From Peptococcaceae bacterium BRH_c8a (GTDB lineage Bacteria > Bacillota > Desulfotomaculia > Desulfotomaculales > Desulfallaceae): a stretch of DNA of 64,000 nt. The position numbers were made by a program, and so were the translations under genes. The notes below the pieces were generated by a model. That model saw only the letters and a list, made by a program, of their open reading frames with translations, searched no databases and was not told where the DNA came from. Of this stretch, positions 61,287 to 64,000 are shown one piece after another (position 1 is the first letter of the stretch; every line of letters begins with the position of its first letter). Location of the stretch: the NCBI GenBank assembly GCA_000961575.1, contig LADP01000042.1:62001-126000 (forward strand), read 5' to 3'.

Positions 61287-62054
61287 ATGAACCGGCCTCT
61301 GTTAGTGGTAACCATTTGTTTTACTTTAGGTATAATATTCAATTCCCTGTTAGTGGTAGAATCGGGAATTATTTTTGCTGCGCTCCTGGCTGTTAGTTGC
61401 TTGGCCCTGGCTTGTTATGCCCTGTATCGGCGTGAAGGGGCAGCGGTTATACTGCTGCTTTTCGTGTTTCTGGGGTGGTTTTGGGCCGGGGTGGGTGAGC
61501 ATGTTGCCGGCCGGGGGCCGGAACAATTTGCCGGACATTATGTGACGTTGGAAGGGACTGTGGACTCTGAACCACGGTACGGGAGCGGTGGGGATGACGC
61601 TGTTTATGTGTTAGCGGCCAAGACTGTGTACCTGGGGGAGCGTCGGGTGGAAACCACAGGGCTGGTACAGGTTAAAGTAAAGGGTAGCGGCCCGGTTTAC
61701 AGTTACGGCGAGCAGCTGCGGGCTGATGGTTTTGTTTACCGACCCGGGGAGCCCGGCAATTTTGGGGCGTTTAATTATCGGGATTACCTGGACAGACGAG
61801 GCATCCATTGCCTAATGACGGTAATGGGGCCAGAACATATCCGGGCGGTGGCCAGTGAGGGTCGGTTGTCCCCGGTTGGCTTGGCCTTGGAATGTAAGAA
61901 CGCCCTGCGGTTGGTAGCCGACAGCACCTTGAATCAAAGACAGGCGGCTGTGCTGGGCGGTATGCTTTTTGGCAGCAGAGACCGCATAGACCGTGCTACA
62001 AACGATATCTTTGCGGAAACCGGGGTGGCCCATGTGATGCCAGTGGTGGAATAG
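61287..62054 (+). pseudogene. comEC: comEC N-terminal fragment, cut by an inserted element
   Basis: The readable part is about 255 residues. It has two or three membrane segments (about 4-70) and the ComEC N-terminal OB-like domain (about 80-190): HYVTLEGTVDSEPRYG, GEQLRADGFVYRPGEPGNFGAFNYRDYLDRRGIHCLM. It ends at AVLGGMLFGSRDRID...FAETGVAHVMPVVE. Intact ComEC continues from GVAHV into the conserved SGLH core. Here homology stops at GVAHVM and a stop follows five residues later. The serine-recombinase element starts at the break. The DNA channel domain must lie beyond the window, if it is still present. Confidence 0.88.
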
Positions 62055-63666
62055 TGCAAGATTCCGAATTAGCATCTCCATTTTTACGATTGTTTGTGCC
62101 ATTATTACCGGGTGTGCTATTACCGCCGCTCGGGGGATGGGAATTTAATTCTGGAATAATACATTCGATATCCAGGTGTATCGACCCGTCTTCTTTTGTA
62201 TCAATCCATATTACCTTAACAAGTTTCATAAGGAATTCTCTTTTTTCTTTAAAGGGAGCATTTAATATATCATGTACGTTAATTCCTTGGTAACGTTCTA
62301 TTAAGGTTTTTATTCCCTTAATCTTAGTGTCTTCCATTGCGATCTTTAGTTTTAGTTCTTCAGTTTGGCGTACCAAGTTCTGGTGGCGTTCTTTTATGCG
62401 ATCCATCTCTTTGCCCAAGTCTTCTAATTCAATAAGCTCTTCACGGTAGGCCTTTAATATTCTCTCCTTCTCCTTGTCACAGCGGGATATTGCCTGCTCT
62501 ATTTCTTTAAATTTTTGATTTAGTTCTTTTTTGGTATTTTCTAATGAGTTATCTTGAGAACAAACAGCTTCTTGCAGCCTGTCAGGATTGGACAATATGT
62601 CGATCAAATGTTCTAATACTTTGTTTTCCAATTCGGCACCCTTTACCCATGTAGCACTGCATCTTTTAAGTTCACGTTCCGGGTAGTGGATGGCGGAGAT
62701 GTTTTTACAACAACGGTAATAATGTTTTTCGCTACGGGGTTTCCCAATTTTTTTACCGCTTTTTCGCTTATACAAATATTGCGTGGTTCCGCCCATGTCC
62801 CAGCCGCATTTTTTGCACTTGAGGATGCCACGAAGTAGGTATTGGCGCTTATTGGTGCGGTGTATCATGTTACGACGTTCTTTTAATAGTTCCTGGGCCT
62901 TATTAAATGTCGTCTGGTTAATTATTGGGGGCACAAAAACTTTAACGGATGTTTTTCTGCTTTTATAAACCCATTCCCCAACGTAAACGGATTTAACCAA
63001 GATTGAATATACTCTTTCACCGTCCCATTTCCCGCCTTTTTTAGTTGGGCGCCCGAGCGCTTTTAGAATTTTTGCGATCGATATGGTGCTATTGTCAGGT
63101 TTTATATATTCGGAGAAAATTAGCCTAACGGTCTCTGCTTCTTGTTCATTAATCATTAACTGTCCGTTTTCTCGATCATAGTCGTAACCGAGCGGTGGGT
63201 TGGACAATACTACGTAACCTTCCTGGGCGCGTCGCAGCTTTCCCAATTGTGACCTTTCGATAAAGGTATCCCTTTCCAACTGCGCTATTGAGCCCAGCAA
63301 GGAAAGCATGAACTTGCCGATTGGGTTTGAAGTATCAAAGGGTTCAGTCACAGAACAAAAAGCTATTCCAAGCCGGTCCATGTGGTCAACAATTAGAAGA
63401 AGGTCTTTTACGCTTCGAAAAAATCGGTCTATTCTATAGACAATCACCAGTTTAAATTTACCTTCTGAAGCGTCTTTAAGTAGTCTTTGGAGTGCTGGCC
63501 GATTTTGAGTGGTGCCGGAATAACCGGGGTCCACATATTCACTATAAATCTTATATTGCATACTCCGGCAATAGTTTTTCAGGAGATCCAGTTGGGATGC
63601 AATGCTAAAGTTATCCGCTTGTTCTTCTGTTGATACACGCGCATAAATCGCTACCGGAATTGACAT
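61996..63666 (-). CDS. Large serine recombinase of the element in comEC
   Basis: The 556-residue protein has a resolvase catalytic domain (about 1-150) with nucleophile Ser in YARVSTEEQ and Arg in RIDRFFRS and LERDTFIERS. A recombinase domain follows (about 160-270), then a zinc ribbon with CKKCGWDMG...CC...CSATW (about 290-345) and a coiled coil (about 365-455). It integrates and excises the element at specific att sites. Its last codons run into comEC sequence on the other strand, so the C-terminus shown (after about residue 538) is made by the insertion. Confidence 0.93.
   Translation of the reverse strand: MSIPVAIYARVSTEEQADNFSIASQLDLLKNYCRSMQYKIYSEYVDPGYSGTTQNRPALQRLLKDASEGKFKLVIVYRIDRFFRSVKDLLLIVDHMDRLGIAFCSVTEPFDTSNPIGKFMLSLLGSIAQLERDTFIERSQLGKLRRAQEGYVVLSNPPLGYDYDRENGQLMINEQEAETVRLIFSEYIKPDNSTISIAKILKALGRPTKKGGKWDGERVYSILVKSVYVGEWVYKSRKTSVKVFVPPIINQTTFNKAQELLKERRNMIHRTNKRQYLLRGILKCKKCGWDMGGTTQYLYKRKSGKKIGKPRSEKHYYRCCKNISAIHYPERELKRCSATWVKGAELENKVLEHLIDILSNPDRLQEAVCSQDNSLENTKKELNQKFKEIEQAISRCDKEKERILKAYREELIELEDLGKEMDRIKERHQNLVRQTEELKLKIAMEDTKIKGIKTLIERYQGINVHDILNAPFKEKREFLMKLVKVIWIDTKEDGSIHLDIECIIPELNSHPPSGGNSTPGNNGTNNRKNGDANSESCTIPPLASHGPPRFPQRYRL
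62036..62052. mobile_element. Left junction (att) of the element inserted in comEC
   Basis: ComEC similarity ends around GTGATG (62035-62040), where codons for the conserved AVSGLH should follow. From CCAGTGGTGGAA on the sequence belongs to the element. The exact crossover bases cannot be set without the other end or an empty site. Confidence 0.6.
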
Positions 63667-64000
63667 TGTTGGTTTTTCTCCTTGTAAAATAAGAAAATAG
63701 GCTCTCTTTGAACACTTGCGTAATTGTCTTATTATGGTTAAACCGTGAGATAAAAAAGGGGCGTCTTTCTATAAATAATGTTGGTTTTTCATCGCTGGCG
63801 GTCAGATCGAGCAGAGTAGTCGATATCCTGATACAACTTTAATCAGATCCAAACCCATGAACTTGGCCTGCAGTTCAAACTTTTCATTTATTGTTCCGGT
63901 GAAATAACGTCTTCAAGCTCTTTGGAAACACGTATTAAGCATATGCACGGCGCGGTAGTTAGTCATACTAACACCCTCTGAAGAAGTAACTACTCTATTA
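63667..64000. other. Element DNA upstream of the recombinase, no gene recognised
   Basis: About 330 bases to the window edge with no plausible coding frame or repeat. It should contain the recombinase promoter and belongs to the inserted element, which continues beyond the window. Confidence 0.5.

Follow-up and report, generated by a model that had tools for sequence, protein, structure and literature searches.

The window analysed here is a 64,000-nucleotide stretch of Peptococcaceae bacterium BRH_c8a (genome G000, a 48-contig, 4.17-Mb draft assembly), corresponding to positions 62001-126000 of contig C19 (LADP01000042.1). It ends inside an element that interrupts the competence gene comEC and encodes a large serine recombinase at its left end. 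The far end of the element, on contig C47, carries a gene for a helix-turn-helix (HTH) protein, and we propose that recombinase and HTH gene form one open reading frame (ORF) when the element is circular. The features concerned are listed below, in window coordinates unless a contig is named.

61287..62032, + strand: N-terminal part of comEC, cut at the His codon of GVAHV (from the ORF, Pfam DUF4131 and the joint)
61996..63666, - strand: large serine recombinase, 556 aa (from the ORF and Pfam), with its last 12 residues and stop across or in comEC DNA
62008..62057: attL, about 25 bp on each side of the crossover, its element-side arm being half of the attP inverted repeat
62031..62035: core CATGT, present in attL and attR, with the crossover dinucleotide CA at 62031-62032
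62036..64000: left end of the element, extending on to C19:208091 and resuming at C47:30818 to run back to attR at C47:15746
C47:15791-16303, + strand: two-domain XRE/HTH gene, directed inward from attR and in phase with the recombinase frame

An initial annotation, made from the letters of the window, held that comEC stops at GVAHV and that a recombinase reads out of the break, and both ORFs and their Pfam domains bear this out. The N-terminal ORF (61287-62054, + strand, 255 aa) ends in ETGVAHVMPVVE followed by a stop, and the break lies in the His codon of GVAHV/LSVSGLHVG, between the N-terminal part and the Competence domain. The rest of comEC and attR, expected past the 64-kb end of the window, were found at C47:14127-15746 (- strand), where the remainder of the gene carries the Competence and Lactamase_B domains (Pfam) and is intact, neither missing nor decayed. 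The pentanucleotide CATGT is common to both joints (window 62031-62035; C47:15742-15746), and joining the comEC flanks in silico yields an unbroken 787-aa frame reading GVAHVLCVSGLHVG, so that precise excision, as the annotation had it, would be predicted to restore the gene. The C-terminal half is held by a 548-aa ORF at C47:14127-15773 (- strand; L001:595-2241), the first residues of which are encoded by the element. The right end of the element provides this half with an in-frame ATG, and the 548-aa ORF could be translated while the element is integrated.

An uninterrupted comEC with the same flanks, i.e., an empty site, is present in G001, a genome of the same genus. A blastn alignment of G000 with G001 passes through the joint (82.4% over 2491 nt), with more matching blocks on both sides, and the two genomes agree in gene order around comEC. 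Differences from G001 fall mostly on third codon positions in both parts of the gene (36/21/78 by codon position over 248 codons in part 1 and 61/35/162 over 539 codons in part 2). At the sequence level, the interruption is an integration, not decay, in agreement with the earlier proposal of a serine-recombinase element inserted in the most conserved motif of comEC. The element does extend over two contigs of a 48-contig draft with its middle not closed, as might be expected if an assembly chimaera or contamination had joined the recombinase to comEC. We regard such an artefact as barely credible, given the core common to both sides at the exact joint, the restored comEC frame, the palindromic attP, the synteny with G001 on both flanks and the presence of the same joint in other genomes.

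An intact comEC elsewhere, which would have contradicted the initial annotation, was not found in G000 either by a search for ComEC matches or with a profile of the Competence domain, which hits a single place, on C47. The order-wide search, in which ComEC was matched in 111 of 113 genomes, gave six ComEC-like matches in G000, of which three are specified: the two halves of comEC and a separate paralogue that matches residues 524-785. Because comEC is split, and because comEC transposons of pneumococci are cited as shutting off recombination (PMC12637031), the host is probably not transformable by the ComEC route. Two further genomes have comEC divided between two contigs (query 1-319 and 338-785 in G005; 4-366 and 380-784 in G044), reflecting either contig breaks or other insertions.

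The recombinase contains the domains Resolvase (PF00239), Recombinase (PF07508) and Zn_ribbon_recom (PF13408), all exceeding the Pfam cut-off, and by this predicted make-up, in one protein of 556 aa (about 500 aa being the class size), it is a large serine recombinase (integrase). The final 12 residues, HGPPRFPQRYRL, derive from codons in or across comEC DNA, as had been recognized earlier; the comEC-encoded tails of the related recombinases of G068 and G072, described below, are 7 residues each. For the recombinase, the predicted structure was of insufficient quality for use (predicted local distance difference test, pLDDT, 53.7). The attachment sites are organized as in large serine integrase systems: attP and attB are unlike, a short core is common, and attL and attR flank the element. 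We computed attP by joining the two element ends and placed the CA crossover by aligning the comEC codons and locating the midpoint of the symmetrical attP. Around CA, the attP half-sites match at 20/25 positions in G000 and 15/25 in G068, and the attB half-site pairs match at 7/25 and 8/25, respectively. By a 20-bp measure, the score of the G000 attP is 15; 2000 random windows gave a 99.9th percentile of 14 and a maximum of 19.

What integration does to the recombinase goes beyond a short tail. The C-terminal change foreseen by the initial annotation is larger, since the frame in the circle continues into the two-domain HTH protein: with the ends joined at attP, no stop interrupts it across attP and on into the HTH gene, for a total of 730 aa in G000 and 707 aa in G068. 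The recombinase frames are stop-free up to the att site and in the same phase in all three genomes that have them (G000, G068 and G072), and the HTH frames keep that phase past the att site in 4/4 (G000, G068, G078 and G038). Stops are absent from the fusion frame over the 55 codons past the att site in all four genomes, whereas the other two frames contain 19 and 21 stops summed over the four. The linker up to the HTH motif RLR measures 50, 54, 50 and 55 codons; the lengths differ by whole codons, and the length changes therefore preserved the frame. Between G068 and G038, linker differences by codon position are 15/17/33 over 45 codons and 6/6/13 over the 19 codons preceding the first ATG of G038. 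Shuffling gives an estimate of 4e-6 to 4e-5 for phase and openness combined, a figure valid for four independent cases, and the four are related. The att position was set by the comEC reading frame, aligned on the His codon, and two of the seven joints (G068 attR and G072 attL) were repositioned by this alignment after a first out-of-frame result.

In the integrated form, the HTH gene sits at attR behind antisense comEC DNA. A scan of this form for promoter-like sites close to the HTH start gave none, against 0.8 expected, which is weak evidence, and promoter and terminator scans gave no decisive signal above expectation. The structure model of the HTH protein (pLDDT 74.2) has two HTH units; Foldseek returned no match for it at E <= 0.001, the best being DdrO at 5e-3. 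A second, nearly identical fragment of the C-terminal HTH unit lies about 13 kb from attR (C47:28957-29151, L004), as if derived from an earlier related element.

Both ends of the element have relatives within the order. A recombinase profile built from G000 and G068 matches 34/113 order genomes at E <= 1e-60, with G000, G068 and G072 standing apart at E = 0 and the next match at 5.9e-85; the G068 and G072 proteins are 57-58% identical to that of G000. An HTH profile built from G000, G068 and G078 matches 18/113 genomes at E <= 1e-10, and four stand apart, these three and G038, which has E = 1.9e-50; the next match (2.9e-20) is the fragment within the G000 element itself. All three members of the recombinase family are in comEC at the same codon, and all four HTH genes abut that codon and are directed away from comEC. 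Each end of this type of element, in these genomes, is therefore found only beside that comEC codon. For G072, a 70%-complete genome, the left joint alone was found. The recombinase is adjoined at the left end of the element in G068 and G072 by a gene that is presumably RecA-like (L057:961-2010, L060:3178-4233), and no RecA-like gene lies next to the recombinase in the G000 window.

Among 398 sampled genomes of the phylum there was no further full-length member of either family outside the order, in a non-exhaustive survey that scored up to three and up to nine candidates per genome; at its thresholds it gave a contig-truncated recombinase in G187 (E 2.3e-86, positions 11-365) and an HTH match in G462 (E 1.2e-18), the 2-kb locus of which lacks comEC. 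The recombinase profile found 23 distant relatives in viral contigs, with best segments of at most 38% identity, and the recombinase had at least 5000 matches in plasmids, where every best place among the matches listed was below 60% identity, 987 phage records, all below 60%, and four archaeal matches at 38-41% in a collection of genome contigs. For the HTH protein, viral contigs (searched with the profile) and phages gave no match and plasmids one partial match.

The comEC loci of G038 and G078 bear on whether the insertion serves the host. In G038 (L092, L132 and L136) the native locus seems rearranged, with comEA and a full 811-aa comEC on one contig, and the right-hand neighbours of comEC, which we take to be holA-like and lepA-like ORFs, on a different contig, where the HTH gene and a decayed piece of comEC adjoin them. 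It seems that comEC became complete again alongside an element remnant. In G078 (L052 and L053) an uninterrupted comEC extends up to a contig end, and on another contig a further comEC fragment (93.5% identity over 666 nt) adjoins a truncated HTH gene; the two copies may reflect a strain mixture in the assembly. A host-programmed switch, in which signal-induced excision restores comEC (sporulation or stress having been suggested initially), would fit the intact, non-decayed gene that excision is predicted to yield. Nevertheless, the sequence shows nothing that would tie excision to a host programme, the element brings its own conjugation genes, and the intact comEC of G038 and G078 lies beside remnants as if regained rather than switched. 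We consider such a switch very unlikely.

The element itself is predicted to resemble an integrative and conjugative element (ICE). The stretch from attL to the end of C19 spans 84,061 bp and that from the end of C47 to attR 15,073 bp, for a size of at least about 99 kb, provided that both stretches belong to the element throughout; the middle is not closed in the assembly. ORFs of the C19 stretch were scanned, twenty with Pfam and seven with NCBIfam. As in ICEs, a coupling protein and a VirB4-type ATPase occur together: a VirD4 protein of the CD1115 family (373 bits, cut-off 250) and a VirB4-like ATPase, which scores 231 bits with the CD1110 model, under its cut-off of 325, and is above cut-off for Pfam AAA_10 and the TraG P-loop. 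The C19 stretch also encodes topoisomerase III (TopB), an M23/SLT wall hydrolase, an actin-like protein, a GGDEF protein, a T2SSE ATPase, RadC and a DNA methylase adjoining a ResIII protein. A relaxase search with PF13814 gave no match, controls included, and no tRNA was found at the two loci checked (L003 and L004). At C19:145484-160778 (L005) there is an apparent Tad/Flp-type pilus cluster, of which Pfam confirms only the T2SSE ATPase and a response-regulator/ParA-like ATPase. Near attR, an 848-aa protein (L004:4389-6935, - strand) matches a sacsin N-terminal ATP-binding-like domain with a score exceeding the NCBIfam cut-off and is possibly defence related.

Collectively, we propose, with a probability of roughly 0.6, that an ICE-like element integrated by its own serine recombinase cuts a recombinase-HTH fusion gene at comEC and that this cut acts as a latch. 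Several observations weigh against this proposal. In-frame start codons (ATG or GTG) precede the HTH motif in all four genomes, so that the HTH part could be a separate protein, and before the possible HTH starts G000 and G078 differ without third-position bias (5/4/4 over 7 codons, 13/12/14 over 25). The four HTH genes share ancestry, and their agreement in phase is therefore not four independent events; the profiles were built from some of the genomes that are then counted, which leaves only G072 and G038 as independent finds. G038 and G078 also have an uninterrupted comEC. The circular form, attP or the fused gene was seen in no genome, and no free attP is present in the G000 assembly at up to two mismatches. 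Finally, no relaxase was found on the assembled contigs of the element, its middle being missing from the assembly; PF03432 was found only on contig C24, which may or may not belong to the element.

The start codons and the unbiased stretch between G000 and G078 would suit an ordinary serine-integrase element in comEC, with the HTH protein as a separate regulator beside attP and the open frame inherited but unused as a fusion; the targets of serine integrases are, moreover, enriched for competence genes in a large survey (PMC10083194). Against such an ordinary element, all 4/4 frames stay open and keep their phase, none of the three recombinases has a stop of its own before the att site, and linker insertions and deletions come in whole codons. 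This explanation we consider doubtful, if far from negligible.

Under the latch proposal, the recombinase would integrate the element at CA in the His codon of the comEC GVAHVLSVSGLHVG motif. The circular form would express the recombinase-HTH fusion. Attachment at comEC would cut the gene and end fusion synthesis, leaving the integrated recombinase with only a short comEC-encoded tail of 7-12 residues, while the HTH gene at attR, at least about 99 kb away, would lose the recombinase promoter and is probably silent. The HTH part may repress that promoter or tune attP x attB recombination. The state of expression would then report whether the element is circular or integrated, and the latch, presumably one-way, would favour staying in; comEC, and presumably transformation with it, would be off until excision. 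A broader version, for which we put the odds a little short of even, is that a serine-recombinase element senses its own topological state: the fusion would come from the circle only, because attP lies inside that single gene, and integration would sever the gene, switch recombinase form and HTH output together, lock the element in and shut the host's transformation route for curing. The switch would be tied to its comEC target, the loss of which would protect the element from curing by transformation. That serine-integrase elements commit to integration and do not quickly revert is usually attributed to a separate directionality factor. A natural recombinase to which recombination itself adds, or from which it removes, a DNA-binding domain would amount to a compact, built-in latch, useful for one-way integration tools.

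Transferable serine-recombinase elements that insert into the coding region of comEC, always at one dinucleotide, have been described in Streptococcus pyogenes (Phi1207.3/Tn1207.3 and Phi10394.4; PMC4260502). Together with the enrichment of competence genes among serine-integrase targets, they place the initially annotated insertion, taken alone, within a known group. The present element shares this mode of insertion with Phi1207.3, the target of which is GA, but uses CA at the GVAHV His codon and combines conjugation genes with one recombinase that is in frame with an HTH gene through attP. The new part is the far end, namely the HTH gene and the open fusion frame through attP; we found no description of an HTH protein joined through attP to a serine recombinase among open-access titles and the beginnings of abstracts, a coverage that excludes subscription papers and preprints. 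Engineered fusions of serine integrases with recombination directionality factors, in which the fused partner can set the direction of the reaction (PMC5737554), likewise join a partner protein to a serine integrase, but they are synthetic and their partner is a directionality factor, whereas the HTH protein is a putative regulator.

Two natural systems resemble the open frame through attP. In the integration-dependent immunity of mycobacteriophage BPs, attP lies in the repressor gene and integration gives a shorter, stable repressor (PMC4557955). Here, too, the computed attP falls inside a regulator-bearing coding sequence, in all four open frames, and in both cases integration alters the C-terminus of a protein, which in the ICE-like element, too, would change the regulatory state; the difference is that attP in this element separates a serine recombinase from an HTH protein within one frame. 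In suicidal (SSV-type) integrases, a class described as exclusive to archaea (PMC8371274), attP is inside the integrase gene, which is split by integration, as proposed here. Those enzymes, however, are tyrosine recombinases whose catalytic protein is broken, whereas here the serine catalytic, DNA-binding and zinc-ribbon domains all remain in the integrated ORF (Pfam) and only the HTH part is lost. If the element does sense its own topological state, it would represent a serine-recombinase, ICE-borne counterpart of both integration-dependent immunity and suicidal integrases; a natural latch of this kind would add bacteria and serine recombinases to the known range of gene-splitting integration modules.
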